DNA of 39,366 bases from an uncultured Methanobrevibacter sp. (GTDB lineage: Archaea; Methanobacteriota; Methanobacteria; Methanobacteriales; Methanobacteriaceae). How positions within the stretch are numbered: the first letter of the stretch is position 1; the number at the start of each line of letters is the position of its first letter. Positions 23,597 through 39,079 of the stretch are shown piece by piece. The DNA lies in assembly GCA_902771225.1 (NCBI GenBank), contig CACXWH010000043.1:1-39366 (forward strand), written 5' to 3'. The position numbers were made by a program, and so were the translations under genes. Under the pieces are notes generated by a model, which saw only the letters and a program-made list of their open reading frames with translations, was not told the origin of the DNA and did no database searches.

Positions 23597-23634
23597 TAGA
23601 AAAAAAGTTTTAAAGTAGAGGCTTAACCCTCTAC
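23597..23634 (-). terminator. Intrinsic terminator after the DUF2149 gene
   Basis: On the minus strand GTAGAGG-GTTAAG-CCTCTAC (23615-23634) is followed by two T-runs. The loop contains the stop codon of the DUF2149 gene, so stem and coding end overlap. Confidence 0.75.
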
Positions 23635-23961
23635 CATTATCAGCTTACCGGTCGACGGATCTTTATATACTTTACCCATTTCAGTATATCCTTGACCTGA
23701 ACTATTAGAGGAATCTGGAGTTTCATTTAATTGTTGACCTTGATTTACTTCAGAAACACTTTTAATAGTTTGCATCACTTGCTGTTTTTCCTGTTGTGTC
23801 ATATCTTCATTGAAAACTATGGACTGCATATTCCAACTGATAATTACAAAAACAAGAAAACCAACAGCAATAACAAGCATAGCATCAACCAAGTTAGCTG
23901 TACCTGCCATTGGATCTTCTTCAACACGACGAGATCGTCTTCTTTGTTTTTTACGAACCAT
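23623..23961 (-). CDS. DUF2149 protein, ExbD-like single-span membrane protein
   Basis: A small protein with a basic N-terminus (RKKQRRRSRR), one transmembrane helix (about residues 24-45) and a Gln/Ser-rich outer tail ending DPSTGKLIMVEG, the usual DUF2149 layout. The helix begins ANLVDAMLVIAVGFLV, with Asp26 placed as the proton-carrying Asp of ExbD/TolR (IDVMLV), so it is likely the partner of the ExbB-like channel upstream. I use ATG 23959-23961 with a GTGAT site; a GTG at 23968-23970 overlapping the previous stop would add three residues. Last gene of the DUF2162, ExbB, DUF2149 unit. Confidence 0.82.
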   Translation of the reverse strand: MVRKKQRRRSRRVEEDPMAGTANLVDAMLVIAVGFLVFVIISWNMQSIVFNEDMTQQEKQQVMQTIKSVSEVNQGQQLNETPDSSNSSGQGYTEMGKVYKDPSTGKLIMVEG

Positions 23962-23966
23962 TTGAA

Positions 23967-24614
23967 TCACTGTTTATTCATATAATCTAAAACAGCATCA
24001 GACAAAGCATCTAAATCAGATAAGTAACGGTCATACCAACCGCTTCTAATCTTACCAATGACATAACATAATGCACCAGAACCAATACCAACAATTGTTG
24101 TGTTAAATGCAAGGGTTAATGATTCTGCAAGAGTATTAACATCACCAGCACCTAATGCTGCAAGACCCGGACCCATAGGAATTAAAGTACCCATTAACCC
24201 TAATGTAGGACCTACACGAGTAATAATGTCTGTTTTTTGCAATGTCTTATCAATTTTTTCTTCTTCATATTCGACTAATTTACGAGCCAATGCTTCTCTT
24301 GAATTTACATCCAAAGCAGAAGAACTGGCAATTTCGGATAAAACTTTTCTCTGAGATTTAGGGATTTCTGCACTTTCAATAACACTTTTAAGAGCATCAA
24401 CAGAAGGAGCAGCGTTAATTTCATAAATTAAATCCCTAATGCTTCCAACAGGAACCTTTCTTCTAGAGGTATATTCTGATATTAATCCACCTAAAGTAAT
24501 GATTGATATGATAACTATAATTAAAAGAATAACCAATACAGGAATGGTTAAACTTTGTGAAATAACATCTAAAGAACCTGTTAAAAATTCCCCACCAGGT
24601 ATACTAACACTCAT
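23967..24614 (-). CDS. MotA/TolQ/ExbB-type proton channel protein
   Basis: It has 215 residues with an N-terminal transmembrane helix (about 24-46), a cytoplasmic helical region, and two C-terminal helices in the family motif (TRVGPTLGLMGTLIPMGPGL, then ...LTLAFNTTIVGIGSG). The Thr and Pro/Gly pattern follows ExbB and TolQ, whose pentamers surround an ExbD/TolR dimer and use the proton gradient to drive a periplasmic partner. A GGTGAT site precedes the ATG. It is flanked by DUF2162 upstream and the ExbD-like DUF2149 protein downstream. In an archaeon with no outer membrane, the driven partner is unknown; the CobN-like protein next door is the obvious candidate. Confidence 0.9.
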   Translation of the reverse strand: MSVSIPGGEFLTGSLDVISQSLTIPVLVILLIIVIISIITLGGLISEYTSRRKVPVGSIRDLIYEINAAPSVDALKSVIESAEIPKSQRKVLSEIASSSALDVNSREALARKLVEYEEEKIDKTLQKTDIITRVGPTLGLMGTLIPMGPGLAALGAGDVNTLAESLTLAFNTTIVGIGSGALCYVIGKIRSGWYDRYLSDLDALSDAVLDYMNKQ

Positions 24615-24631
24615 AATTTATCACCAATATA

Positions 24632-25342
24632 TTATTCTAAAAGACTTTTACTTTTCTTACTTAAAAATACGCCAATAATCACTAAAACAACAATCATGAA
24701 AATTACTGCAATAATAGATTCAGGTGAATTCATTGTTAGATCTTTAAAATCTTTACTTAATGAACCTGCAATGTTCGGAATTACAATAGCTGAAAGCAGG
24801 AAATAAGCACCTAAAAGCAACATAAAATTACCTAAAATAATAGGATAAGGCTTACTTGTTAATTTAACTATAATATTAGATGCAAAATAAGTAATTATAA
24901 TTACTGCCACCAATGCGGCTGCTGCAAACCAACTTAAATAGAAAGCACCAACACCAATAGTTGGAGCGACAATCAAAATACTGGCAACGATTGAACCAAA
25001 ACAACATGGACACGGTGCAATGACCGCAAGAGACGTTGCAGTACTGGTATTGTGATCATGTACTTTCCACTCCCTGATTGTAATTAAACCTGCAATAATC
25101 ATTATTAATGCCATGATTATATAGAATACAGAATTATAACTATAAATAGCCTGAGTGAGTTGTTCTGCATATAAAGATGCGACAGCGGAAATAATTAAAA
25201 CTCCACCACCATATCCAACACAAATAATCGCTAATAATTTTTTTGACAAATTCGCTAAACCTGAAGCTAAACCCACTTTTATTCCAAAAACAAGAATAGC
25301 GGCAAGAATACCAAATTGCCATAAAACACTCATCATATCCAT
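24632..25342 (-). CDS. DUF2162 multi-pass membrane protein (putative transporter)
   Basis: About six hydrophobic segments fill this 236-residue protein. An unusual VIAPCPCCFGSI segment lies between helices 3 and 4; the Cys-rich turn recalls the CcdA/DsbD and LysE-like transporters to which DUF2162 seems related, and could bind a metal or act in thiol chemistry. It ends with a short basic tail (SKKSKSL). GAGAGGAT precedes the ATG. First gene of its unit, 17 bases from the ExbB-like gene, with its own TATA box. Transport of a metal or a tetrapyrrole is an inference from the CobN-like neighbour. Confidence 0.8.
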   Translation of the reverse strand: MDMMSVLWQFGILAAILVFGIKVGLASGLANLSKKLLAIICVGYGGGVLIISAVASLYAEQLTQAIYSYNSVFYIIMALIMIIAGLITIREWKVHDHNTSTATSLAVIAPCPCCFGSIVASILIVAPTIGVGAFYLSWFAAAALVAVIIITYFASNIIVKLTSKPYPIILGNFMLLLGAYFLLSAIVIPNIAGSLSKDFKDLTMNSPESIIAVIFMIVVLVIIGVFLSKKSKSLLE

Positions 25343-25405
25343 ATTAAAATCCTCTCTTTATAATTAATTAAAAATCAATTACATTTTATTATTTTATTTT
25401 TCTAA

Positions 25406-25418
25406 CTATATATATTTT
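25406..25418 (-). promoter_or_regulatory. TATA box of the DUF2162-ExbB-DUF2149 unit
   Basis: The minus strand reads AAAATATATATAG. It lies just past the terminator of the CobN-like gene, so the three membrane genes can be transcribed on their own. No AGTATTACT element accompanies it. Confidence 0.45.
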
Positions 25419-25424
25419 CATTTC

Positions 25425-25459
25425 AAAAAAAATTAAAAGAATAACAAAATGTTATTCTT
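25425..25459 (-). terminator. Intrinsic terminator of the CobN-like gene
   Basis: AAGAATAAC-ATTTT-GTTATTCTT on the minus strand (25437-25459), a perfect 9-bp stem, runs straight into a T-rich tract (25425-25436). Confidence 0.8.
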
Positions 25460-25462
25460 GAG

Positions 25463-28400
25463 TTAAAATTCATCTTCTTTACTTTTATTTCTAAAGTATC
25501 CTATAGCAAATATTCCTACTAAAACAATCACACATATCAACAATTGTATTGACATAGATTTTTCAGTTGTTGTACTACTGCTTGAAATTGATTTTTCAAC
25601 TTCATAACTTTTTGATGCTGCATCTTCACCACTTTCTCCAGTATTATCTAAAGCATTTACTTCAGATGAACTGGAAGCAGTAGCAGAATGAGATGCAGAT
25701 TCACCGACACTAGCTGCATTTTGACCGGTGCTTCTACCGGAAGTTGAACTGTCAGATTTTAAAGTTGATGAAGAAGAGTTTGATGCCACATTTGCATTGC
25801 TGGCATTAGCACCTGAATTCTGACTTGCATCTGAATCTGAAGAATGCGGATCCGGGTTGTCCTGGAAATTAATTGGGTTGAAGAAGTTATTATGAGTTGC
25901 TTGGAAAAGCTGGTCTGCAAATTTGGCAAGTAAATCAGGATTAATAAAATCTACTGCCCATTGCATCATAGCAATATTTCCACAACTACAGTCACAGCAT
26001 GCAACACCATTAGCAATTACGGCTTCAGCCCATTGATTAGCAATATTAGATAATGTAGCTGAATCAGTTTTCCAGTAACCCTCATAAGCAGCGGTCAACA
26101 TTGTACCTGCAGAAGATATGAATGCATAATTGTTATTTCCAGTTTTTAACCAATCACTAACACCAATTCCATATTTGTCATTGAAATAGACATTGTAAGC
26201 GTCATCCCACATGTAATTTGAAACCGCTTCAGGTCTTGTTACGGACCATCCAAGCAAATCAGTTAAGAATTTGTTTGAAATATATCTTGCACCGCTGTAA
26301 CCTTCCTGCATCATTCCACTAATCCAATCAGGGTTTGAATATCTGGTAAGTATTTCTTTTGCAATAGCCTGTTCAATGGATGTAGTATATGGAGTGTTTT
26401 TATTACCATACATCAATACATTCATTTTAGGAGTATTTCCATTAACGTGAGCCATTGTCATTGAAAGACCTCCCCAGTAATCAAAGAAATCATCATTATC
26501 CAAAACACCATAAACATTGGTGTTACGGCTGACTATTAAATCATTAGTATTGTTTAATGCTCTTAAGAATACTAAAGGATTGGTTTCTCCCCAATAGAAT
26601 TTGGAGTACATGTTACCCATTCTTCCTAAGTAAAATTCAGCCAGTTCATCAGTATTATTCCAAGTCCAACTTAAAGATACTGATTTTGCTATTCCCGCAC
26701 CATAATCACCGTTAGGCGGTGCAAAAATACGGGTGATTGCATATTCAGCAGCATAAGTAGTATTATAACCTAATTGTTTATAATAAATGAAATCATTTAC
26801 CCAATGTTTTGCAACACTGTTTTCTTCAAATGTTTCTTTACCTACACCATAATAATCAATACTAGCTACAATATGCTCCAATCCCTCTTTCATATCATTA
26901 TAATAAGGATTTGTCTTTAAAGCCCCATCATTCAATATTGTAAAGTAGGATCTTGCCAATGCAACTCTAAATGCATTATCCATTAAAATAGCTTGTGTTG
27001 AATATAAATCTCTAAAGTTACCACTTGTAATGACAGTTACGTCAATTCTTTTCTTAGCCCATCCATCAGGACGAGTCAAATCATTTAATTTAATGTAACT
27101 TGGCATTAAGTTTGTTTTTGTCCCAACACTTACTTCTTCATCGTGTTCGTGGTCATCATGATCTTCATCATTGCCCACCTGGACATATCCACCAGCACTT
27201 GGTGATGATGAATAAACAGGTTCCATACCAAGTAAATATAAAACAACTGAAATTAATGCTCCATCATCTCTTGCAGTTTCAACACACCAAATTCCCATTA
27301 CTAGCTTTTCAGTATCATCAGTTAAGCCTTCTAATGCGAGCAATGTTAAAACTCTTCCATATTCATAAGCTTCTTTAGTTGGAAGTTCTTGAGATTGATC
27401 ATGGAAAAAGTTACCCCCGGTTTCAAGTGAATTTATATCTAAGACATCACCTGCAGAACCTGGAGAAATATATTTTCCATTTAATGCTTTGATGAATGAA
27501 TTCATTTCCTGTTCAACAGATGATTGGATTAATGAAATATATAATTTTGCATAATCAAATGTCGCAAGCAAAGATTGTGAATTAACACCTAATACTTGAG
27601 CTACTTCTTCACTTGAATAATATATTAAAGATATTACAACATTTGCTGACAAATTCATCACAACATCTCTTTGAAGGGAATTGAGTTCATCATAGTTTTT
27701 AGAGTATTTTATTTTAGCAATCTCATCATATAGAGAAGTGGTAATTCCATTATAAGTGAATTTTTGTGATAAAGCTGTTGATACTGACAATCCTATATCC
27801 TTATCAGTCCAATTTTGTCCAAGGGCATGTAACCCCCAGGTATAGAGTTCATTTTGAACTGATTTAATGAAAGAATCAACACTTGAAATCAACTCATCTG
27901 ATGTTAAGTTATTGAATGTTTCATTGTTAATGCCCATAGAATGAACATAGTTATTAGTATTAACAAGATACTTGATTTCGGATATAAGTGCATCCTTAGA
28001 ACTTTGATTTAATGCATTTTCATATTCATTTATCAGACCAGCTATTTGTGTCAAATTACCATAAAGTTGAGTATAAGCTAAAGGAGAAGTTAAATGAGAA
28101 ATCATTACAGCAAATCCTCTTCTTTTAGCTTGGATACCTTCTCCAAGACCATCAGAAATATAGAAATAAATTTGTGGAGTTTTACCCACAACAATTGATC
28201 CATAATCTGTTGAAGACAATAAAACCTCTTTACCAGGTAACCATTCGTGAGTAGCGTGTCTTCCAACAAATACCATAGCAGACGGATAATATTCCTGGAA
28301 ATAATAATATGCTGCTAGATATTGATGTGTTGGAGCAACAGCGGTACTGTGGTATAATGCATCAGAATCTGCTTCCCATCCTCTTTGAGGTTCAGGAGCA

Positions 28401-30481
28401 ATGAAAACATTACCAAAAGTCAAACCGGGAATTACAAAGTATTGTGTTCCGTTTCTCCAAACAGTCATAATATTACCTGGAGCTTCACCCCAACCATTTA
28501 AACCAGGAACATTCAAATCAGACCATTGCTGTTTGTATTTTAAGAAAACATTATAATCTGAATCTGATCCGGTAATTAAATACTTTCTTAGAGATGAAAC
28601 AATATTGTCTAAAATAGGAATTGCACGGGATGTGTAATTATCCGGTAATAATGCTACAATTTCACTGTACCAATCAGATAATCTCTCATCCATTGGAGAA
28701 GTATAATCAATGGCTATAGCCCTTCTTGACAATTCTCCAATATATGCAACAGGTCCTTCAACAACTTGCAGTTTAGAAATATCCTCTAAACTTTCAAACC
28801 ATTCCAAATATTCAGAAACAGGAAGTAAAACTACATTTGACCTGTTAGCTAATTTTTCCAATTCACCTGGAGCCCATGTAGCTACATTAATACCGCATTT
28901 AATAATCATGTCTTCCAATTGGCTTGTATTATCCGGTAATTGGCCAACATCATAACCTTCTGATTTTAAAGTCAATAAAAGATTATAAATACTGGTTATA
29001 GAGTCCAAATAACTTGAACCTATATTTTGTTTTCCAGGAGGATAATTATAATAAACCAATGAAACTTTCTTATCTTTATTATTCACATGATTTAAGTCAA
29101 TCCATGAAATAATCCTATCGGTGAATAAGTCAATATTGGTTCCATGAGATTTATATCCTGTTATCTTAGCACCTGTGGTGGCTGAGACTGCATTAGTAAC
29201 ACCACCTACAAAGGTAGCTTCAATAATACCTTGTGCTTCACCAATAGCAACATGCCACCATTTGTCACTCCTGTTTCCAGGAAGACCTGTAGTGCTTAAC
29301 TCCCATTCTTCATTACTTACATAATCAGAATGAACAGCTCTAAATACAGGTACCCCTGATGTTTCGAAATACTCAGTTACTTTATCAAATAATGTTCCTC
29401 CAATACCATAAGCAGGCATTGAAATAATAGCATCAACATAACTCTGGTAATTTGATGAATTTTCTAAAAATGATTCATAATCCGGAGCATTAGTAAAGTA
29501 TTCAACCATAACTTTTAGTTGATCATCGGACCCTCCTGCTGCAACTACAGGAATAACATTAACGCCTTTAGATTCTAAAGATTCAATTAATGCATAATAT
29601 GGCTCCAAAGCTGCACTGGACACATACATATTACTTTCAAGTAAACCAACAGTATAATTTCTTGAAGAATCGAAATATAAATTCATATATTCCTTTAAAG
29701 TCATGTATCTGTCCCTATATAACCCATATTGATAAGATTCATGAAATACTGGAGCATTATAGTTACAATAATAACCGCAAGCATTTAATGCCCACAATAT
29801 TTGGTTAACTGAATTTTCCTTATCGTTGCAATCTTTATATAAAACTGCTTGGTTAAATAAAGAGTTTACTTTATTGCCTTTTCCATTGGTCAGATAATCA
29901 CTAACAGTTGTATATGCTTGACCTCTTTTTGTTGTTTGGAAATATTCATTTAGATAATCACTTGTGAATATTTCATCATTGAAGATTTTATGATAATTTA
30001 TAGTAGAATTTTTAACTAAATTAAATGTTTTAATCTGTGAAGATGAAGAACTTTCCAATACAAGAAACATCTCTTTATTTGAAAGATTAGGATATTTAAC
30101 TAACAGGTTTGTAAATACTGAATCTGCATCAGTTGTCAACCAATTAGCTATTACAATATCACTTGTATTAACTAAATTAAACAATTCTTCTTCTTTCATT
30201 GTAGAAATTTGAGCCGAACTTCTGACTTGTATATTAACATCAGAATAGTTCTTTAATACTTCATTTGCTGCAGAATCAAGAATATTTGTTCCACTATTAT
30301 CACTAATAAGGAGCATTGTTTTATTATATGCTTGATTTTGAGAGCTTAGGCTATCTGTTTGGACAGTTGTATTTTCATCCAAAGCAAATGTAGCATTAAT
30401 ACAACTCAAAAATAAAACAAATAAAATAATTAAAATTGCTATATTTTTTAAATTAAAAGCAACAATTTTACTCTTAATTAT
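25463..30481 (-). CDS. Secreted, membrane-anchored CobN/magnesium-chelatase-H-like protein
   Basis: CobN/BchH-type proteins are the large, tetrapyrrole-binding subunits of ATP-dependent chelatases and normally act in the cytoplasm. The core is clear: HEWLPGK (H745), IYFYISDGLGEGIQAKRRG, WAKKRIDVTVITSGNFRDLY and NPDWISGMMQEGYSGA, followed by a GWSVTRPEAVSNYMWDDAYN block. It has 1672 residues against about 1200-1300, and secreted-protein features: an N-terminal signal peptide, a Ser/Thr-rich linker and a C-terminal transmembrane helix with a KSKEDEF tail. A His/Asp-rich insert (H1108, H1111, H1113) and CCDCSC (1495-1500) may bind metal. Numbering uses ATA 30479-30481, six bases after GGAGGT; the first standard start, TTG 30407-30409, would cut the signal peptide. 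The ATP-hydrolysing chelatase subunits are not in the window. Role inferred: surface capture or metal handling of a tetrapyrrole. Confidence 0.85.
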   Translation of the reverse strand: MIKSKIVAFNLKNIAILIILFVLFLSCINATFALDENTTVQTDSLSSQNQAYNKTMLLISDNSGTNILDSAANEVLKNYSDVNIQVRSSAQISTMKEEELFNLVNTSDIVIANWLTTDADSVFTNLLVKYPNLSNKEMFLVLESSSSSQIKTFNLVKNSTINYHKIFNDEIFTSDYLNEYFQTTKRGQAYTTVSDYLTNGKGNKVNSLFNQAVLYKDCNDKENSVNQILWALNACGYYCNYNAPVFHESYQYGLYRDRYMTLKEYMNLYFDSSRNYTVGLLESNMYVSSAALEPYYALIESLESKGVNVIPVVAAGGSDDQLKVMVEYFTNAPDYESFLENSSNYQSYVDAIISMPAYGIGGTLFDKVTEYFETSGVPVFRAVHSDYVSNEEWELSTTGLPGNRSDKWWHVAIGEAQGIIEATFVGGVTNAVSATTGAKITGYKSHGTNIDLFTDRIISWIDLNHVNNKDKKVSLVYYNYPPGKQNIGSSYLDSITSIYNLLLTLKSEGYDVGQLPDNTSQLEDMIIKCGINVATWAPGELEKLANRSNVVLLPVSEYLEWFESLEDISKLQVVEGPVAYIGELSRRAIAIDYTSPMDERLSDWYSEIVALLPDNYTSRAIPILDNIVSSLRKYLITGSDSDYNVFLKYKQQWSDLNVPGLNGWGEAPGNIMTVWRNGTQYFVIPGLTFGNVFIAPEPQRGWEADSDALYHSTAVAPTHQYLAAYYYFQEYYPSAMVFVGRHATHEWLPGKEVLLSSTDYGSIVVGKTPQIYFYISDGLGEGIQAKRRGFAVMISHLTSPLAYTQLYGNLTQIAGLINEYENALNQSSKDALISEIKYLVNTNNYVHSMGINNETFNNLTSDELISSVDSFIKSVQNELYTWGLHALGQNWTDKDIGLSVSTALSQKFTYNGITTSLYDEIAKIKYSKNYDELNSLQRDVVMNLSANVVISLIYYSSEEVAQVLGVNSQSLLATFDYAKLYISLIQSSVEQEMNSFIKALNGKYISPGSAGDVLDINSLETGGNFFHDQSQELPTKEAYEYGRVLTLLALEGLTDDTEKLVMGIWCVETARDDGALISVVLYLLGMEPVYSSSPSAGGYVQVGNDEDHDDHEHDEEVSVGTKTNLMPSYIKLNDLTRPDGWAKKRIDVTVITSGNFRDLYSTQAILMDNAFRVALARSYFTILNDGALKTNPYYNDMKEGLEHIVASIDYYGVGKETFEENSVAKHWVNDFIYYKQLGYNTTYAAEYAITRIFAPPNGDYGAGIAKSVSLSWTWNNTDELAEFYLGRMGNMYSKFYWGETNPLVFLRALNNTNDLIVSRNTNVYGVLDNDDFFDYWGGLSMTMAHVNGNTPKMNVLMYGNKNTPYTTSIEQAIAKEILTRYSNPDWISGMMQEGYSGARYISNKFLTDLLGWSVTRPEAVSNYMWDDAYNVYFNDKYGIGVSDWLKTGNNNYAFISSAGTMLTAAYEGYWKTDSATLSNIANQWAEAVIANGVACCDCSCGNIAMMQWAVDFINPDLLAKFADQLFQATHNNFFNPINFQDNPDPHSSDSDASQNSGANASNANVASNSSSSTLKSDSSTSGRSTGQNAASVGESASHSATASSSSEVNALDNTGESGEDAASKSYEVEKSISSSSTTTEKSMSIQLLICVIVLVGIFAIGYFRNKSKEDEF

Positions 30482-30556
30482 ATTAAAACCTCCATAGAAA
30501 AGAACTTTATTTAATTCTTTTCATGATTAATATTATTTTTATTATTAATATAATTA

Positions 30557-30602
30557 ATTAAAGTATTACTAATCATATAAAAAATAGTTAAAAAGTATTA
30601 CT
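30557..30602 (-). promoter_or_regulatory. Paired AGTATTACT element before the CobN-like gene
   Basis: The 15-mer ATTAAAGTATTACTA (plus strand, 30557-30571) is followed by a second AGTATTACT at 30594-30602, exactly 32 bases on. The near-palindromic core AGTA-T-TACT sits next to the TATA-like element (30546-30556). The same 15-mer precedes the two DUF3344-like genes. Confidence 0.65.
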
Positions 30603-30603
30603 T

Positions 30604-30633
30604 AAAAAAAGAAGATGGATGATAAAATCATCC
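30604..30633 (-). terminator. Intrinsic terminator of the 980-residue surface protein gene
   Basis: GGATGA-TTTTA-TCATCC (30617-30633) on the minus strand contains the TGA stop codon in its first arm and is followed by TTTTTTT at 30604-30610. Confidence 0.8.
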
Positions 30634-33570
30634 AGTAATTGTTATTTTGTTTGCAATATTGGATCCATCATAACTGGAGGTTATAACGTATTCACCTGCA
30701 GGCAAGTTAATTTTTAATGCAGCTTGTCCATTATCGTCTGTCTTTTTATTATAAAATACTCCGTTGATGTTGAATTGTACAATAGCATTAGCCAAAGGTT
30801 TTCCTTGACCATCAACTAAAACAGCTTTAAATTGGGATCCATCTTTGTACTTCATTGAAAGGTCTGAAGCCTTTAAAACTGGTAAGACAGTAATATCGTT
30901 TGATACACTGCATCCCTCATACATTGCAGTAATAATGTATTGTTCTGGTTGTAAGTTAATATTTAATCTGGCAATTCCTGATTCGTTGGTTTTCCTTTCA
31001 TACATTACACCGTTAATGTTGAAAGTAACAGTTTTTCCTGCACCTACAGGATTGCCGTCATCGCCTAATATTTTTACATAGTATTGGGAAGCATTTTTGT
31101 AGTATTTAACCAAATCCTTATTCTCAACAATTTTTGAGATAACTTTAATATTATTAGCCGCCTTTTCTCCAGTTACAGGATTAATTGCAGTTATAACATA
31201 GTCTTTTGCAGGCAGATTAAGATTTAATTTAGCCAAACCTTTATCACCAGATACTTTACGCTCGTAAAATACACCATTGATGTTGAAGTTAACTACAGTT
31301 CCATCAGACAAATATTTACCTTCGCTGTTGCGGAATGTTGCATAGTATTGGGTTGCGTTTCGATAGATTTTAACAACATCAGTACCGTTTACTGTCGGTA
31401 AAATTGTTACAAGAGATTTGACTGTAGTATTGGCAACCGTGGTAGTTACATTATACTTTCCGCTGATAATTCCAAGAGCAATGCTTGCAGTACCTTTTTC
31501 ATCAGTGGTTTTGGTATAAGTTTTACCATTAATATTAATATTTACTGATTGATTAAATACCGGACTGCCCGCATAATCAGTTACTGTTACAACAAATCTT
31601 TCAGGCCCATTATAATATTTTTTTACATCAGGTGCATCAACCACTAAAGAATCGCCGTGTTCAACAACAACCATTTGGTGTAGGCCTAAAATTGTTGAAC
31701 CCGTTGCTTCAAAGTAAACATAAGTATTATTTGAGTTCAAATCAGCATTGAATGTATCAAATGAATTAGCGGTTCCATTCCAAACATTGCTGTAAAGTCT
31801 ATCGTTGATAATTAAGTTACCTTCACCATTTTGAGCACTGGCAGCAAATACATATAAAATAGCCTTTCCGTCAACTGTTTCAAAGTTTCTATCAAAACCG
31901 GCAGGTAAATTCTTATTATTTGTTTTAGACAATAAATCAGCTTCCTCTAAAATATAAACTGTTTTTTTAACAATATTTTTATCATTATTTGTTAAAATTA
32001 TTAAGTTACTTGGATAAACTGCAGCATTACCTGAATTTTTATTGAATTCAAAAGTATTTACGCCATCAACGACAAAATCAGTAACATTATAAACAACCAA
32101 ACCGTATCCATATGTACCATAAATACCTAAGTTGGACTGGTCACGGTAAGAAGCTACAGGAACAATAGTTTTACCGTTGAATGTGGTGTTCCAAGTGTTA
32201 AAATCACCATCGATAGCTTTATCCCAATTATATGGAACATATAACAATGCTTTGCCAACTTTTCCATCAGCCAAATCAACATCATATACATCGGCCCTGT
32301 TAGTAGCACTACCTGCACTATATTCAGTACTATTTAAAACAATGACATTTCCAGTGACATTAAATTCTCTGAAAGTAGGATTAGCTTTAGGGTATTCAAA
32401 GTCTTTACCCAAATTACCATTATATAAAACAACAAATGAAACATTTGTTGAGTTTAAAATATTTCCTTCCATATCTTCTACAACAAGAGAATAGTTTTCA
32501 TATTTATTTCTATTTCCACCAGTCAAATGAATATTTTCTGAATAAAATGGAATTTTATTATTATATAATTTTACTATAGCATTGATGTCTTTTTTAGATA
32601 AGATTTCCATTGTTAAATTATTTGAAACACCAGCATATAATGTATCTTTATATTCCGGTGTTAATGTGGCAATCACTTCATTATAAGATTTATCTATTTT
32701 TAATAATTGAACAACAGATTTAAAAGAACCATAACCGCTTGATGATGGAGTATATGAGTAATTTGTATCAACACCCATTTCAAAACTATCGGTTATATTC
32801 CATTTATCATATATGAAATAATTTCCCTGATTTTCATAAATTGGGTCATATAACAATTCATCATTAATCTTAGATACTGCATTATATGAAGACAATGCAA
32901 TATTTTCAAAAGTCACTTCATCATATTCTCCTTTGAAACCTTTTGTATTGATTAAATTTGAACGCATAGATTGTGTCCAGGATTGTCCAACATTTAACCA
33001 ATATGTTATTTCATCTTTATCTGCATCATCATAAGCCAATACTAAAGCTATTAATTTAATTCTGCCATCAAAATTATAACCTTCTTTTTTAGTATTTTCA
33101 ACAGATATTTTAATAGTATCTCCTGAAGATAAGTTTTTCACATTATCTGTAATGTCAAAGGTAGATTGATAGTCAGAAAACTGTTTTGTAGTATGGTTAT
33201 TAATCCTATAAACCATAGGATCGTTCGCCATATCCTTATCACAATATAAATCTTCATAGCCCAATATTTTCAATCCGTTAACTGTATTCAATGTAATGTT
33301 AGAATATAATGCATAAGTGGGAGCACCACTTCCAGAATAAGTGCTAACAATTACATCAGCAGATTGAATTTGTTCAACATCCTCAGGGATAGTATATTCC
33401 AAACTTCCGGATTCTTTAAATGGATTTGAAGAATAAATAACTACATCCCCGGAGACTGTTCCGTTTTCAACTTGAGTCATAGCAGGCATTTCATCAGCAA
33501 AAACTGCGCCCGAAGTTATTATAATTAAAAATAAAACAAAAAAACATAACATGAAAATTTTAAAATTCAT
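30628..33570 (-). CDS. Secreted DUF3344-like surface protein with Ig-like repeats
   Basis: A 980-residue secreted protein. The signal peptide (MNFKIFMLCFFVLFLIIIT, cleavage after VFA) is followed by an N-terminal domain with NVGQSWT, then one large module (FNTWNTTFNG, SYRDQSNLG, YGYGLVVYNVTD, EGNLIIND) that I assign to the DUF3344 group. Four Ig-like repeats of about 90 residues end the protein, three sharing F-N-I-N-G-V-x-Y with K-N-x-x-P-x-x-Y-x-I-T-type strand ends. There is no C-terminal membrane helix or pseudomurein-binding repeat, so attachment is unclear. The ATG at 33568-33570 lies six bases after GGGGG; a TTG two codons earlier overlaps that spacer. It shares repeats and promoter element with the next, larger gene. 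Function unknown. Confidence 0.78.
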   Translation of the reverse strand: MNFKIFMLCFFVLFLIIITSGAVFADEMPAMTQVENGTVSGDVVIYSSNPFKESGSLEYTIPEDVEQIQSADVIVSTYSGSGAPTYALYSNITLNTVNGLKILGYEDLYCDKDMANDPMVYRINNHTTKQFSDYQSTFDITDNVKNLSSGDTIKISVENTKKEGYNFDGRIKLIALVLAYDDADKDEITYWLNVGQSWTQSMRSNLINTKGFKGEYDEVTFENIALSSYNAVSKINDELLYDPIYENQGNYFIYDKWNITDSFEMGVDTNYSYTPSSSGYGSFKSVVQLLKIDKSYNEVIATLTPEYKDTLYAGVSNNLTMEILSKKDINAIVKLYNNKIPFYSENIHLTGGNRNKYENYSLVVEDMEGNILNSTNVSFVVLYNGNLGKDFEYPKANPTFREFNVTGNVIVLNSTEYSAGSATNRADVYDVDLADGKVGKALLYVPYNWDKAIDGDFNTWNTTFNGKTIVPVASYRDQSNLGIYGTYGYGLVVYNVTDFVVDGVNTFEFNKNSGNAAVYPSNLIILTNNDKNIVKKTVYILEEADLLSKTNNKNLPAGFDRNFETVDGKAILYVFAASAQNGEGNLIINDRLYSNVWNGTANSFDTFNADLNSNNTYVYFEATGSTILGLHQMVVVEHGDSLVVDAPDVKKYYNGPERFVVTVTDYAGSPVFNQSVNININGKTYTKTTDEKGTASIALGIISGKYNVTTTVANTTVKSLVTILPTVNGTDVVKIYRNATQYYATFRNSEGKYLSDGTVVNFNINGVFYERKVSGDKGLAKLNLNLPAKDYVITAINPVTGEKAANNIKVISKIVENKDLVKYYKNASQYYVKILGDDGNPVGAGKTVTFNINGVMYERKTNESGIARLNINLQPEQYIITAMYEGCSVSNDITVLPVLKASDLSMKYKDGSQFKAVLVDGQGKPLANAIVQFNINGVFYNKKTDDNGQAALKINLPAGEYVITSSYDGSNIANKITITG

Positions 33571-33628
33571 TTTCAACCCCCATTAATATTTACAATAAAA
33601 ATTTTTTAAAAAATAATATATAAATATA

Positions 33629-33674
33629 ATTAAAGTATTACTAAAATTGTAAAAATGCTAAAAAAAGTATTACA
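33629..33674 (-). promoter_or_regulatory. Paired AGTATTAC element before the 980-residue gene
   Basis: ATTAAAGTATTACTA lies at 33629-33643 (plus strand) and a second core, AGTATTACA, at 33666-33674, again 32 bases apart. The TATA box (minus strand ATTTATATATT, 33615-33625) is immediately downstream. Confidence 0.65.
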
Positions 33675-33680
33675 AAAAAT

Positions 33681-33712
33681 AAAAAAAAGAAGAGAAGTTT
33701 AAATAACTTCCC
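33681..33712 (-). terminator. Intrinsic terminator of the 1752-residue surface protein gene
   Basis: GGGAAGTT-ATTTA-AACTTCTC (33692-33712, minus strand; one G-T pair) begins directly after the stop codon and is followed by TTCTTTTTTTT. Confidence 0.75.
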
Positions 33713-36700
33713 TTAGGCAGTTATTGTAATTTTGTTTGCGGTATTCAATCCATTATAACTTGAGGTTATAATGTATTCGCCAGGCAATAAATTAATGTTT
33801 AATTTTGCTTGACCAAAACTGTCAGTTACCTTGTTGTAGAATACACCATTGATGTTAAATCTAATGGTTTGCTGTGCATAAGGTTTTCCTTGGCCATCAA
33901 CAAGTGTTGCAACGAATTGAGTTCCATCTTGATATTTCATTGAAATATCATCTGCAGTTAAAACATTGAGAACTTTAATATCATTTGATACTTTACATTC
34001 TTTGTATTCTGCAGTGATTACATAATCACCCGGAGGTAAATTAATATTCAATTTTGCAATACCAAATTCGTCAGTTTCACGAGTGTAGAATACTCCATTG
34101 ACATTGAATGTAACAAGTTCACCAGCACCAACAACATTACCATCCTCACCTATTATTTTAACAGTGTATTGGGTTGCGTTTTTATAGAATTTGGTAATGT
34201 CATTGTTTTCAGTAATGATGGATAAGACCGTAATATTATTTGCTGCCTTTTCTCCAGTTACTGGGTTCATTGCAGTAATTACATATTCGCCTGCAGGCAA
34301 GTTAATATTTAATTTTGCCAAACCTTTATTGCCAGATACTTTACGTTCATACATTACACCATTAATGTTGAATTTGACAACTGTTCCGTCAGCCAAGTAT
34401 TTGCCTTCGCTGTCAAGGAATGTTGCATAGTATTGAGTAGCGTTTCCATACATTTTTACAACATCAGTACCATTAACAGTTGATAAAATAGTTACAACAG
34501 AATCTACAAATGTATTATTATCAATAGCAGTAGTTACATTATATACTCCACTGTTTAATCCTAATGCGATACTTGCTGTACCGTTTTCATCAGTATTTTT
34601 AGTGTAAGTTCTACCATTAATAGTAATGTTTACGGATTGATTAACTACAGGATTTCCTTGGAAATTTGTAACAGTTACAACAAATCTTTCAGTTCCGTTG
34701 TAGTATTTTTCCACATCCGGTGCCTGAATTAGAAGAATGTTTTCTTGTTCAACAATAACCATTTGGTGTAGGCCTAAAATAGTAGCGCCGGTTGCTTCAA
34801 AGTAAACGGCAATGTCAGTTCCGTTTACATCTGCCACAAACATTTCTAATGAACTACTAGTTCCGTTCCAAACATCAGTATAGTTTTCACCGTTGATATA
34901 CAAGTTACCTTCACCGCTTTGAGCACTTGCAGCAAATATAAATAAAGTAGCATTACCGTCAACCACAATAAAAGATGTGTTGAATCCAGCATCTAAATTC
35001 TTATTATAAGATTTAGATAATAAATCAGCTTCTTCATAAATATAAACTGTTTTTAAAGTAGTTGCATCGTCTTTATCAGTTAAAACAATTAAGTTACTTG
35101 GATAAACAGCAGAATTACCTGCAGTTTTATTCAATTCAAAGGTATTTAAACCGTCAACAACCAAAGCAGTGACATCATAAACAACTAAACCGTATCCGTA
35201 TTTTGCATAGGTAGTTCCTAAATTGGATTGGTCACGGTAAGAAGCGATAGGAGCAATAGTTTGACCGTTGAATGTTGTATTCCAGCTATTATAGTCACTA
35301 TCGAGAACTTTATCCCAATTATATGAAACATACAATAAAGCTGTATTAACAGTTCCGTTTTCTAAATCAACTTCAAATACATCGGTTCTGTTAGTAGCAC
35401 TACCAGCACTATACTCTTCAGTAGTTAAGACAATAACATCACCAGTGACAGTGATTTCTCTTAAATTTGGTTCAGCTTTAGGATATTCAAAGTCTTTACC
35501 TAAATAACCGTTATATAAAACAACAAAAGTATAATCAGTGTGATCAATTACATTACCCTCAGCATCTTTAATAATTACAGTATAATTAACTTTTTCATTG
35601 TCATTTCCATTTACTGTCTGTGCAGTGACTGGTCTTATAGTAGGATCAACTACAAGAGTAACATTACTTTCACCCATAGCCAATGAATCAATAACAAAAC
35701 TGCTTAATTCGTCTTCATTAAGATAAACTATAACACTAACATTTTCAAGAGGTGCAGCTTCATTTGTAACTGTTAAGGTTAAATTATTTTCTACACCAGC
35801 ATAAATAGTGTCAGCATATTCAGGTTTTAAATTATTGCGCACTAAGTAAATAGGGTCTTCTACAACCACTAGTTGGTGTAGACCTAAAATGGTAGCACCG
35901 GTTGCTTCAAAGTAAATGTTAACATCAGGTCCATTGACAGTAGTATTATACATTTCTAATGAATTACTAGTTCCATTCCAAATGTCAGTATAGTTTTCAC
36001 CATTGATAATCAAGTTTCCTTCACCGCTTTGAGCACTTGCAGCAAATACAAATAAAGTAGCATTACCGTCAACCACATTAAAAGATGTGTTGAATCCAGC
36101 ATCTAAATTCTTATTATAAGATTTAGATAATAAATCAGCTTCTTCATAAATATAAGCTGCTTTTAAAGTAGTTGAATTATTTTTATCAGTTAAAACAATT
36201 AAGTTACTTGGATAAACAGCAGAATTACCTGCGGTTTTATTCAATTCAAAGGTATTTAAACCATCAACAACATAATCAGTTACGTTATAAACAACTAAAC
36301 CGTATCCGTATTTTGCATAGGTAGTTCCTAAATTAGATTGGTCACGGTAAGAAGCGATAGGAGCAATAGTTTGACCATTGAATGTTGTATTCCAACTGTT
36401 GAAGTCACTATCGAGAACTTTATCCCAATTATATGAAACATACAATAAAGCTGTATTAACAGTTCCGTTTTCTAAATCAACTTCAAATTCATCAGTCCTA
36501 TTGGTAGCACCACCAGCACTATACTCTTCAGTAGTTAAAACAATAACATCACCAGTGATAGAAAATTGTCTTAAATTTGGTTCAGCTTTAGGATACTCAA
36601 AGTCTTTACCTAAATAACCGTTATATAAAACAACGAAAGTATAATTAGTTTCATCAATTATATTGCCATCAGCATCTTTAATAATTACAGTGTAATTAAC

Positions 36701-38971
36701 TTTTTCATTGTCATTTCCATTTACTGTCTGTGCAGTAACTGGTCTGATAGTAGGATCAATTACAGCAATTATTTTACTTTCAGCGGTAGCTAATGAATCA
36801 ATGTCGTAACTTTCTAACTTGTCACCATCAACTAAAACATCAACAGTAGCATTTTCGAGTTTTGAAGCCTCATTTGTAACTGTTAAGGTTAAATTATTTT
36901 CTACACCAGCATAGACTGTGCCGGAATATTCAGGTTTTAAATCGTTAATTACTGAAACAAAGTCAGATTCAACAACAACCATTTGGTGTAGGCCTAAAAT
37001 AGTTGAACCGGTTGCTTCGAAGTAAACATTAATTTCATCTGAAATTACATCTGCATCTGTCATGAACATTTCAAGTGATTGACTGGTTCCATTCCAAACG
37101 TCAGTATATTCTTTATCGTTAACCATTAAGTTACCTTCACCGCTTTGAGCACTTGCAGCAAATACATATAATGTAGCATTGCCGTCAACCACATTAAAAG
37201 GAGTGTTAAAAGAAGGAGCTACATTTTTGTTATAATCTGTAGATAATAAGTCTGCTTCTTCTGAAATATATGCTGTTTTAAAAGTACTTTCATCATTATT
37301 TGTAAAAATAATTAAGTTAGTTGGATAAACAGCAGCATTGCCAGCAGTTTTATTAAATTCAAAGGTGTTTATACCATCAACAACCAAATCACTTACATCA
37401 TAAACAACCAAACCATAACCGTATTTAGCAGAACTTCCTAAGTTAGACTGATCACGGTAGGAAGCGATAGGAGAGATAATTTGATTATTGAATGTAGTGT
37501 TCCAAGTGTTAAAATCACCAATTATATTTTTATCCCAGTTATATGGAACATATAACAATGCAGTGTTAACGGTTCCATCCATTAAATCAACATCATATTC
37601 ATCAGTTCTATTGGTAGCACCACCAGCACTATAAGCATCGGTTATTAAATAGAAATAATCACCAGTGAATGAAATTTCTCTTAATCCTACATTTGGACCA
37701 GGATATTCCTTATCTTTAGCCAAATAACCATCATATAAAACTTTATATGAAACATTGGTAGAATTTAAAACACCACCATCAGCGTCTACAATGTTTAAAA
37801 TATAATCTACAAGAGTATTATTAGCTCCATTGACAGTAGTTTCATTAATAGGTCTAATAGTAGTATCGATTAATTCAATTCCAGCAGATTCTCCAGCACC
37901 AATAGATAAATCACTTGAAGCAATTTCTTCATCTTCAATAAATAATTTAACACTACCATTAAAGTCTCGGTTACCATTGTTAACAGTGATTTTTAAGGTG
38001 TTTTCAACACCGGCATATACTGCAGTGTCATATTTATATTCCGGAGCAATAGTAGCTGATATGGAATATTTTTCTGGAGTGTTTATTTTTAATAATTGAA
38101 TTACACTTTTATATGAAGCATAAGTGGATGCATTTGATGAAGTGTATGTGAAGTTTGTATCTTCTCCTGGTTCAAAATTGTCAGTTATATTCCAAACATC
38201 ATGAATATAATATTTTCCTGTTTCTTGAATAGGATCAGCCAATTCTTTTCCATTTAATTCATATGATTTTGCATCACTGCTTGAAAGAGAAATGGCTTCT
38301 AAGGTGACATCATCACAATAATCATCGAAATCTTTTGTATTAAAGATTGTACTTAATGTTCCTTTTGTCCATGCCTGACCAATATTAAGCCAATAGGATA
38401 TTTTATCATTATCATAGTCATCATAAGCAAAGATTAAAGCAATTAGTTTTATTTTTCCATCAAATATATAGTCTGTCAATTCAGTGTTATTTACTGAAAT
38501 TGTAATGCTATCTCCAGCAGATAAACCTTTTATATTATCGGTTATATCAACTAAAGTTTGATAGTCAGAATATTGTTTAGAAGTAAAATCTGTTATCTGA
38601 TAAACAGCAGGGTCATTTGCAGTATTATTTTCGAATGTTAAATTCGCATATTCCAATACTTCAGTGGTATTGCCCACTGTTAAAGAAATATTTGTTGTTA
38701 ATCCATAATTTGGATTTCCACTTCCAGAATAACTATTTACAACTGCATATGCAGATTTTATCTCACTTACGTTTTCAGGAATTTCATAAACAAGCTCACC
38801 ATCAGTTACACCATCAGCGAAAGGATTTTCCGATACGATTTCAATATCACCAGAAACCTCCCCCGTTGCAACTGAAGGCAAAGCGGAATCTTCAGCAAAA
38901 ACAATTCCTGAAGAAATCATTATTAAGAATACAAATATTGTCAAAAATAAAAAATTATTCCTAAGTTTCAT
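33713..38971 (-). CDS. Giant secreted DUF3344-like surface protein with three tandem 370-residue modules
   Basis: A 1752-residue paralogue of the neighbouring surface protein. Order: signal peptide (FLFLTIFVFLIMISSGIVFA), an N-terminal domain with NIGQAWT, three successive modules of 370 residues (each with a CARDB-like strand segment YAGVEN-L-T-V, then LGKDFEYPKAEP or a variant, SYRDQSNLG, YGYGLVVY, SGEGNL and FEATGATILGLHQ), then four C-terminal Ig-like repeats (FNINGV-x-Y). N-x-S/T sites are frequent. The ATG at 38969-38971 follows GGGGG by six bases. No transmembrane anchor is visible. Its place beside the CobN-like gene and their shared promoter element suggest joint action at the cell surface, such as scaffold, ligand binding or adhesion; none is shown. 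Confidence 0.8.
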   Translation of the reverse strand: MKLRNNFLFLTIFVFLIMISSGIVFAEDSALPSVATGEVSGDIEIVSENPFADGVTDGELVYEIPENVSEIKSAYAVVNSYSGSGNPNYGLTTNISLTVGNTTEVLEYANLTFENNTANDPAVYQITDFTSKQYSDYQTLVDITDNIKGLSAGDSITISVNNTELTDYIFDGKIKLIALIFAYDDYDNDKISYWLNIGQAWTKGTLSTIFNTKDFDDYCDDVTLEAISLSSSDAKSYELNGKELADPIQETGKYYIHDVWNITDNFEPGEDTNFTYTSSNASTYASYKSVIQLLKINTPEKYSISATIAPEYKYDTAVYAGVENTLKITVNNGNRDFNGSVKLFIEDEEIASSDLSIGAGESAGIELIDTTIRPINETTVNGANNTLVDYILNIVDADGGVLNSTNVSYKVLYDGYLAKDKEYPGPNVGLREISFTGDYFYLITDAYSAGGATNRTDEYDVDLMDGTVNTALLYVPYNWDKNIIGDFNTWNTTFNNQIISPIASYRDQSNLGSSAKYGYGLVVYDVSDLVVDGINTFEFNKTAGNAAVYPTNLIIFTNNDESTFKTAYISEEADLLSTDYNKNVAPSFNTPFNVVDGNATLYVFAASAQSGEGNLMVNDKEYTDVWNGTSQSLEMFMTDADVISDEINVYFEATGSTILGLHQMVVVESDFVSVINDLKPEYSGTVYAGVENNLTLTVTNEASKLENATVDVLVDGDKLESYDIDSLATAESKIIAVIDPTIRPVTAQTVNGNDNEKVNYTVIIKDADGNIIDETNYTFVVLYNGYLGKDFEYPKAEPNLRQFSITGDVIVLTTEEYSAGGATNRTDEFEVDLENGTVNTALLYVSYNWDKVLDSDFNSWNTTFNGQTIAPIASYRDQSNLGTTYAKYGYGLVVYNVTDYVVDGLNTFELNKTAGNSAVYPSNLIVLTDKNNSTTLKAAYIYEEADLLSKSYNKNLDAGFNTSFNVVDGNATLFVFAASAQSGEGNLIINGENYTDIWNGTSNSLEMYNTTVNGPDVNIYFEATGATILGLHQLVVVEDPIYLVRNNLKPEYADTIYAGVENNLTLTVTNEAAPLENVSVIVYLNEDELSSFVIDSLAMGESNVTLVVDPTIRPVTAQTVNGNDNEKVNYTVIIKDAEGNVIDHTDYTFVVLYNGYLGKDFEYPKAEPNLREITVTGDVIVLTTEEYSAGSATNRTDVFEVDLENGTVNTALLYVSYNWDKVLDSDYNSWNTTFNGQTIAPIASYRDQSNLGTTYAKYGYGLVVYDVTALVVDGLNTFELNKTAGNSAVYPSNLIVLTDKDDATTLKTVYIYEEADLLSKSYNKNLDAGFNTSFIVVDGNATLFIFAASAQSGEGNLYINGENYTDVWNGTSSSLEMFVADVNGTDIAVYFEATGATILGLHQMVIVEQENILLIQAPDVEKYYNGTERFVVTVTNFQGNPVVNQSVNITINGRTYTKNTDENGTASIALGLNSGVYNVTTAIDNNTFVDSVVTILSTVNGTDVVKMYGNATQYYATFLDSEGKYLADGTVVKFNINGVMYERKVSGNKGLAKLNINLPAGEYVITAMNPVTGEKAANNITVLSIITENNDITKFYKNATQYTVKIIGEDGNVVGAGELVTFNVNGVFYTRETDEFGIAKLNINLPPGDYVITAEYKECKVSNDIKVLNVLTADDISMKYQDGTQFVATLVDGQGKPYAQQTIRFNINGVFYNKVTDSFGQAKLNINLLPGEYIITSSYNGLNTANKITITA
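34735..38050 (-). repeat. Three tandem 1110-bp coding modules
   Basis: Anchor strings recur at exactly 1110 bases: the (G/A)TCACGGTA(A/G) block at 35231, 36341 and 37451, and TTATTATAAG at 35001 and 36111. The two left copies are nearly identical over long stretches; the right one is more diverged. The boundaries are approximate. Confidence 0.9.
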
Positions 38972-39033: not shown

Positions 39034-39079
39034 AATATATAAATATAATTAAAGTATTACTATAAAAAAAAATAATACT
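39034..39079 (-). promoter_or_regulatory. TATA box and AGTATTACT element before the 1752-residue gene
   Basis: The minus-strand TATA box (39034-39044) abuts ATTAAAGTATTACTA (39048-39062, plus strand). The TATA-plus-element block is the same as at 33614-33643 over about 30 bases. Here the partner core is inverted (TAATACT, 39073-39079) rather than a direct copy 32 bases away. The region also serves the divergent plus-strand gene. Confidence 0.65.

Follow-up and report, generated by a model that had tools for sequence, protein, structure and literature searches.

In Bacteroides and Porphyromonas, the hmuYRSTUV operon is described as carrying an ExbB homolog and a DUF2149 protein beside HmuS, a heme de-chelatase (PMC10434189, PMC12583661). 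A role in salvaging metalloporphyrins has been proposed for BtuS, an exported CobN-like family (Rodionov 2003, as cited in PMC6460266), and the BtuS of M. barkeri is described as lacking the operon (PMC10846266). According to an EMBO J paper, no archaeon has a complete hmu operon, and what use Archaea make of the homologs is unclear. We analyzed a related gene set in a stretch of 39,366 nucleotides (the window; contig C43 of a 2.36-Mb genome) from an uncultured Methanobrevibacter. Six genes of the window encode, in the order of transcription, two DUF3344 proteins (A and B), a CobN-type protein, a DUF2162 protein, an ExbB-type channel, and a DUF2149 protein. The gene set, its conservation, the operator it shares with other genes, and the tail common to its exported proteins can be read directly from the DNA. 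We propose, with a probability of roughly 0.55, that these genes encode a nickel-regulated, surface-anchored metal-scavenging device, and its cargo is very probably nickel. An earlier note on this DNA had suggested a proton-driven uptake or remodeling device for a metal or tetrapyrrole, and as a whole that suggestion is partly supported.

The six open reading frames (ORFs) are contiguous and all on the minus strand, where the earlier note had placed them, and their Pfam families agree with its names (Table 1); the two DUF3344 proteins match DUF3344 with E-values of 2.6e-50 and 7.9e-119. The DUF2162-exbB-DUF2149 triad begins 120 nt after the cobN-like gene, and the exbB and DUF2149 genes overlap by 4 nt. 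The two short motifs that had been pointed out, LVDAMLV in DUF2149 (within NLVDAMLV) and CPCC in DUF2162, are both present. Neither HmuY nor a TonB-type receptor was found when the six genes were scanned with Pfam. An Rfam scan of the window gave zero matches, and no tRNA was found in it. What goes beyond the earlier note is the parallel with hmuSTUV, the motif common to the C-termini, the nickel-type operator, and the FmdE-type proteins as further clients of the motor.

To see the gene set in other genomes, we used a scan of 151 genomes, which had the phylum as its scope and returned genomes of a single class. DUF2149 was present in 135 of them, representing 19 of the 20 genera. Among 40 chosen genomes, 39 contained DUF2162 and 35 contained CobN (PF02514). 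We mapped 61 loci, namely 60 stretches around DUF2162 or DUF2149 matches and the window. At 15 of these loci, from nine genera, DUF2162 is preceded on its own strand by a cobN gene at a distance of no more than 500 nt. Both exbB and DUF2149 were labeled at 12 of the 15, and only one of them at the other three, where ORF picking had retained an overlapping ORF. At L043 the gap between cobN and DUF2162 is 1.8 kb, and this locus is outside the count. The earlier note had staked its proposal on such co-occurrence, and it was found: the ExbB-type channel and its one-helix, Asp-bearing partner are conserved beside a predicted-exported enzyme of the metal-tetrapyrrole type. At many other loci the triad is accompanied by different exported proteins in place of CobN. 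Among the best 80 of 105 DUF2162 loci, the named genomes are Methanobacteriaceae, Methanobrevibacter, Methanosphaera, or unplaced archaea, and plasmid records gave zero DUF2162 matches. In the locus map, proteins of about 170 and about 1000 amino acids were labeled "CobN", which was rejected as profile drift via the common tail and a Ser-rich stretch; the large protein so labeled that was tested gave FmdE in Pfam.

The element AGTAATACTTTAAT occurs three times in the window (shuffles: mean 0.01), each time upstream of cobN or a DUF3344 gene, which bears out the claim of a promoter element common to the three genes. The paired form GTAATACT-N24-GTAATACT occurs twice (shuffles: 0), upstream of cobN and of DUF3344 B, with octamers exactly 32 bp apart, and DUF3344 A has one octamer only. 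With one mismatch allowed, the paired operator matched 67 times in 10 genomes, against 2 matches for a reversed control pattern. Merging by hand of sites at most 250 bp apart left 48 sites, one of them (G000:C43:33634) known from the window, and neighbors were labeled by BLAST at 1e-8 to reference proteins. Twelve sites are at cbiM genes; at three of these, the other flank is a divergent gene for an FmdE client (FmdE was checked in two). The others are at genes for NikA-like binding proteins (8), NikD/Opp-like ATPases (3), nikR-containing operons (2), cobN and/or DUF3344 (8), hmd/hmdC (1), a heavy-metal P-type ATPase (1), a FecB-like protein (1), and other proteins (12). Thus, when the cobN/DUF3344 sites are set aside, 15 of 40 sites are at cbiM, nikR, or hmd and 11 at ATP-binding cassette (ABC) transporters of the nickel/peptide type. 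The genome of the window has four merged sites, at NikA-like, cbiM, cobN, and DUF3344 genes. CbiM, CbiQ, NikR, Hmd, and HmdC were above the NCBIfam cut-offs, and CbiN and the NikA-like proteins were best matches under them. The operator-linked ATPases match OppD first and NikD second or third, and Pfam assigns the NikA-like protein to SBP_bac_5, a family with peptide binders as well.

NikR is encoded in all 27 genomes tested, including that of the window. As expected of a NikR regulon, the operator is common to nickel uptake genes and nikR, and it is the putative target of a NikR-type regulator. A GTATTAC-type repeat with a 32-bp period, found by eye, precedes an FmdE-CobN-triad operon in two genomes that we take to be Methanothermobacter-like. 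In one genome (L256), the operator with one mismatch stands between hmd and hmdC, which suggests that the iron-only hydrogenase switch answers directly to nickel. At L026, presumably M. marburgensis, DUF2162 and ExbB precede three CobN ORFs in numbering. In chemostats of M. marburgensis, the "Transporter" MTBMA_c10530 was reported to rise under nickel limitation, CobN1 and NikR1 were high only under that limitation, and Hmd and HcgG also rose (PMC12350162). Since the CobN-like genes of this organism are c10550-10570 (PMC3087415) and the gene order of L026 is as above, c10530 should be exbB. The operator shared with nickel-type genes and the rise of the matching M. marburgensis operon make nickel, rather than heme or B12, the likely metal. 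The earlier note had named cobalamin, nickel, or a porphyrin; nickel is supported by the operator and by proteomics on an orthologous operon, for which we infer the gene-number match, and cobalamin as the target is not. Slight increases of nik, cbiM, and another ExbB gene were reported for M. ruminantium with lauric acid (PMC5816558), and we gave them zero weight.

The cobN-like gene has a signal-peptide-like start, and none of ATG, GTG, or TTG stands at the position set by its Shine-Dalgarno sequence. Because the reading frame extends back from the listed start (TTG 30409) to an ATA at 30481 behind GGAGG, the protein is probably about 1672 amino acids long rather than the listed 1648. It ends in a hydrophobic stretch and a short charged tail. 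The protein is thus predicted to be exported and membrane-anchored, as had been claimed, with its start shifted, and a PF02514 core with predicted signal peptide and anchor is what defines the BtuS type. In a comparison with the PDB, the closest solved relative is HmuS (9d26, E 1.8e-88), followed by ChlH (4.9e-73) and CobN (3.2e-69). His538 of HmuS, in the HFG(T/A)HG motif as defined in PMC12583661, aligns with the His of VGRHATHE, so this superfamily residue is kept. His1209 of HmuS (LSLDHxxEFMGG) is not kept, since the window protein has LDNDDFFDYWGG, with Asp as in CobN 9fpc (LDSDDYYQFEGG). In one local alignment, His254-Gly-Arg, the heme ligand of the HmuS head/neck, faces Gly-Gly-Thr after a four-residue insertion. 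The Met-rich insertion of HmuS domain IV is absent, as 44 window residues stand opposite 194 HmuS residues between aligned blocks, and the HmuS head domain (Met79) is outside the phmmer alignment. A Cys-bearing C-terminal extension aligns between the window protein and HmuS and is beyond the reach of CobN and ChlH. Because His1209, His254-Gly-Arg, and the Met-rich insertion are missing, the protein is not an HmuS by the definition of that family, and exported CobN/BtuS-type is its best name. CobN models rank first in NCBIfam, with scores far under the CobN equivalog cut-offs.

The ExbB-type channel scored 39.5 bits against PF01618 (cut-off 22.9), and its profile matched the MotA structures 9luc and 9lu9 at 3e-5. 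In DUF2149, the head of the one helix has residues that are invariant in 45 sequences (Asp19-Pro20, Asn26, Asp29, Met31, and Val33), and so does the tail G-x-G-Y-x-E-x-G-x-V-Y-x-D, at three positions. A single N-terminal helix with an Asp is a feature of ExbD and TolR. No relationship of DUF2149 to ExbD was detected by Pfam (DUF2149 only), by profile search of the PDB, or by Foldseek, and the latter two gave no useful match to solved structures. An AlphaFold model predicts helices at 20-52 and 59-76 and a terminal hairpin at 100-103/110-113, at low confidence (predicted local distance difference test (pLDDT) 63, predicted template modeling score (pTM) 0.25). Among 57 copies of DUF2162 (loci L025-L081 and the window), 36 retain the CPCC, namely those in CobN-type and some beta-helix-type operons; copies in FmdE-type and some other operons have lost it.

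The exported proteins beside the triads share one ending, which consists of a Ser/Gly-rich linker, K-x-Y-E-V-S-K (the YEV box), about 10-20 residues, and a transmembrane helix that closes with G-Y before a short charged end. Unrelated ectodomains bear the same juxtamembrane K-x-Y-E-V motif: CobN, beta-helix, and FmdE-domain proteins of about 1000 amino acids, which adjoin a CbiM gene. A profile of 30 tails, taken from motor neighbors, found 102 tails at E-values up to about 5e-4 in 20 DUF2149-bearing genomes, 19 of which have at least one tail (G113 has none); a few weaker matches span the membrane part only (e.g. L116 and L117). A tail gene lies within 12 kb at 23 of 43 DUF2149 sites (2.5 expected), a figure inflated because the profile was built from motor neighbors. 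Counted the other way, 28 of the 102 tails are within 12 kb of a DUF2149 gene (2.6 expected). In the 16 DUF2149-less genomes, three matches were obtained at 1e-3. Two of these are to the membrane part only, and the third, in G009, is the tail of a CobN right at a contig end, the point at which the triad would come next; the profile search thus did not find the YEV tail in 15 of the 16. A different C-terminal anchor (A6, from 4 rows) was found at E 0.01 in 9 of these 16 genomes, and therefore membrane anchoring as such proceeds without the motor. The window also encodes, at 11061-13805, a 914-residue surface protein with papain-type (Peptidase_C1) and lectin-like parts, which has another anchor type and belongs to the A6 control set.

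The ectodomains of 96 tail proteins of at least 240 amino acids were clustered, giving 39 CobN and 27 FmdE-type proteins (Pfam was run on three FmdE relatives only), clusters of 10, 9, 6, and 2, and three singletons. Of ten other tail proteins scanned, eight matched beta-helix, NosD, or Chlam_PMP, and two had no match. The genome of the window has a single detected DUF2149; away from it are a second CobN paralog of 1570 amino acids (G000:C39, L128) and a 565-residue repeat protein (G000:C9, L149), both with YEV-type tails. At L084, where no DUF2162 was labeled, a 2019-residue YEV-tail protein with PKD and beta-propeller matches stands next to two DUF2149-ExbB pairs, which are separated by some 3.4 kb. 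Operons of FmdE clients (L067:7533-8051, L079:10194-10754, and relatives) also contain a gene for a small anchored protein rich in Ser, whose mature form has HPGHG close to its start and so looks like a metal-binding N-terminus; at L067 this protein adjoins CbiM. Among 60 YEV-tail genes whose starts were surveyed, 23 had no candidate and 2 were unclear, and 14 of the 35 with clear signal peptides seem to use AUU, AUC, or AUA as the start codon, some seven bases after GGAGG (the start of the window gene was examined separately). Such starts were seen at L039, L045, L073, L128, L130, L132, L141, L146, L147, and L155. Gene callers will clip these signal peptides. The neighboring triad genes were assigned ATG, GTG, or TTG starts by construction of the calling.

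One DUF3344 unit of protein B was modeled by AlphaFold as two beta-sandwiches (pLDDT 82, pTM 0.85). Foldseek TM-scores (template modeling) were low, at 0.2-0.3; in VIA-align, the best Z-scores were 12.4 and 12.1, both to one GH86 protein, and the remainder were 7-9. The model together with VIA-align, which alone is weak, suggests that DUF3344 is a beta-sandwich. DUF3344 is present in 12 of 27 genomes and adjoins CobN or DUF2149 in 11 of the 12, and in two genomes (G003 and G118) a DUF3344 match falls within the CobN reading frame. At L027, which we take to be M. ruminantium, CobN is followed by a DUF3344 protein. In M. ruminantium, mru2047 (called BchH) is described as having N- and C-terminal helices and was a peptide target together with the adhesin-like mru2048 and mru2049; sera against peptides of four adhesin-like proteins, including these two, bound the cells (PMC2812497).

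Table 1. Features of the six-gene block and its promoters (window coordinates)
Feature	Position	Strand	Remarks
DUF3344 surface protein A	33713..38971	-	1752 aa; four DUF3344 stretches and an immunoglobulin-like (Big_1) C-terminal part
DUF3344 surface protein B	30628..33576	-	982 aa
CobN/BtuS-type protein, predicted exported	25463..30481	-	Signal peptide and C-terminal anchor; PF02514 (CobN-Mg_chel), E 2.6e-212
DUF2162 membrane protein	24632..25342	-	236 aa; APCPCCFG motif; DUF2162, E 7.9e-69
ExbB/MotA-type channel	23967..24614	-	215 aa; PF01618 (MotA_ExbB), E 5.5e-10
DUF2149 protein	23623..23970	-	115 aa; conserved Asp29 in its one helix; hairpin VYKDPSTGKLIMV at the C-terminus; DUF2149, E 3.9e-23
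YEV box (K-S-Y-E-V-E-K) of CobN-like protein	25592..25612	-	Predicted just outside the membrane
C-terminal transmembrane stretch of CobN-like protein	25493..25549	-	Hydropathy scan
Operator GTAATACT-N24-GTAATACT upstream of cobN-like gene	30562..30601	-	
Operator GTAATACT-N24-GTAATACT upstream of DUF3344 B	33634..33673	-	
Single AGTAATACTTTAAT upstream of DUF3344 A	39048..39061	-	Same promoter element; second intact half-site absent

Under nickel shortage, a NikR-type regulator would free the cobN and DUF3344 promoters together with genes for nickel uptake of the ABC and energy-coupling factor types. The DUF3344 proteins, with beta-sandwich repeats and a Big_1-type end, would be exported to the wall as wall or ligand binders. 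The CobN/BtuS-type protein would also be exported, and its C-terminal helix would keep it in the membrane. As a dechelatase or a nickel-complex receptor, it would bind a nickel complex and strip off the metal; the simplest such complex would be a nickel tetrapyrrole, for example F430 debris of lysed methanogens. Removal of nickel from tetrapyrroles has, in our estimate, slightly under even odds. In the cytoplasm, class I chelatases normally rely on an AAA+ ATPase. Because such an ATPase cannot act outside the cell, the ExbB-DUF2149 proton motor with DUF2162 would supply the work in its place. We tentatively suggest that the motor docks on its client through the YEV box outside the cell, and the box could join the terminal beta-hairpin of DUF2149 as an additional strand. 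The freed nickel would enter via Nik/CbiMNQO. Given the FmdE and beta-helix clients, chelatases are probably not the only proteins that the motor serves.

Several points weigh against a nickel-scavenging device. The functions of its archaeal members are predictions, the DUF2149 model is of low confidence, and with the heme residues of HmuS absent (His254, His1209, and the Met-rich insertion) HmuS chemistry cannot simply be transferred. Five of the 40 chosen genomes, all DUF2149-bearing, have no PF02514, and CobN was found without a detected DUF2149 in three incomplete genomes and G009 (4 of the 16 DUF2149-less genomes: G009, two that are 85% and 72% complete, and G065, at 77%, with a weak partial match). 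The proximity of tails to DUF2149 sites is partly circular, and 20 of the 43 sites have no tail-bearing gene within 12 kb. At 12 of the 48 operator sites the genes have no evident nickel role, the NikA-like and NikD-like proteins, matched below cut-off, could be peptide transporters, and the CbiM models are named for cobalt, which leaves cobalt a possible metal. The text of PMC12350162 that we consulted does not state which of the CobN genes CobN1 is. A role specific to chelatases is unlikely to be the whole story, because the motor also stands beside FmdE and beta-helix proteins. Lastly, 74 of the 102 tails have no DUF2149 gene within 12 kb on their own contig.

This last count also speaks for the strongest rival, in which the YEV tail would be a sorting or anchoring signal and ExbB-DUF2149 would act on wall proteins by placing, pulling, or remodeling them, more like Tol-Pal or gliding motors, nickel control being merely one use of the motor. 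Tails on beta-helix and adhesin-like proteins without a metal domain fit such a role, as do the DUF3344 models, which resemble beta-sandwich modules of the carbohydrate-binding type. However, CobN and FmdE-type proteins make up 66 of the 96 clustered tail proteins, some genes of either kind carry the operator of nickel uptake genes, and the A6 anchor argues that ordinary anchoring is independent of the motor; we regard this rival as unlikely. Methanogens need B12, and the names CbiM, CbiN, and CbiQ, like the family name CobN, would suit a cobalt or cobalamin device in which the exported CobN inserts or removes corrinoid cobalt and the cbiM beside FmdE clients imports cobalt. Against this, the cobN operator is also found ahead of NikA-like genes, nikR operons, and hmd/hmdC, induction was published for nickel limitation (PMC12350162), and archaeal Nik/CbiMNQO systems are listed for nickel as well as cobalt (PMC2667541). 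We consider a cobalt device improbable.

Heme-iron acquisition as in Bacteroides HmuSTUV is more improbable still. It is suggested by the same gene set (CobN-like protein, membrane protein, ExbB, and DUF2149; PMC10434189, PMC12583661), by HmuS as the top PDB match, and by the common Cys-bearing extension that CobN and ChlH do not reach. However, His254-Gly-Arg and the Met-rich insertion are absent, His1209 is replaced by Asp as in CobN, the operator ties the genes to nickel-type genes, and the six genes include no TonB-type receptor or HmuY. That the protein is an ordinary cytoplasmic cobaltochelatase beside unrelated membrane genes is very improbable: its best NCBIfam matches are CobN models, but they score far under the equivalog cut-offs, a signal peptide and an anchor are predicted, and the operon is conserved in nine genera.

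In methanogens, methyl-coenzyme M reductase and most hydrogenases depend on nickel, and an energized nickel-scavenging surface device would account for a widespread gene set of gut methanogens. It would also answer a question left in print, namely the role of archaeal HmuS/CobN homologs. The host group lacks an outer membrane, and in such cells ExbB-type motors were previously without an obvious job. The YEV box would be a direct handle on this, with one short motif predicting the clients of a proton motor. A bolder version, which we hold to be doubtful, is that monoderm archaea have a TonB counterpart free of the outer membrane, in which ExbB-DUF2149 drives anchored exported clients of several kinds, namely CobN-type dechelatases, FmdE proteins, and beta-helix proteins, via the YEV box, with nickel-tetrapyrrole mining under NikR as its first use. 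If so, the HmuTUV motor in Bacteroides would serve HmuS and not HmuR.

Compared with known systems, the window set is closest to HmuSTUV, with a CobN-like protein outside the cytoplasm in the membrane, followed by a membrane protein, an ExbB homolog, and DUF2149; HmuT and DUF2162 are matched by operon place. It differs in having no HmuY, HmuR, or outer membrane, so it is not a complete hmuYRSTUV operon. Its CobN-type protein lacks the HmuS residues discussed above, and the archaeal set has a nickel-type operator, DUF3344 partners, and, in the archaeal proteins compared, the YEV tail. With BtuS it shares a PF02514 protein predicted to be exported and membrane-attached, but the linkage in Bacteroides is to iron, whereas here it is to a nickel-type operator and a conserved proton-motor operon. 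The TonB box is a short client motif near the membrane, and by analogy the YEV box may be a TonB-box-like docking peptide; ExbB/MotA-family channels with a single-helix partner that has an Asp at the helix head are also common to both systems. Unlike TonB-ExbB-ExbD, the archaeal set has no TonB and no outer membrane, and DUF2149 is a separate family with no ExbD match detected. As in the NikR regulon and the nickel-limitation stimulon of methanogens, cbiMNQ, NikA-like genes, nikR, and hmd/hmdC carry the same operator. Exported CobN, DUF3344, and FmdE clients were not found as members of it in the literature searched, where the nickel link of an exported archaeal CobN is reported in a single proteomic sentence, on CobN1, and the operator and the tail are unreported.

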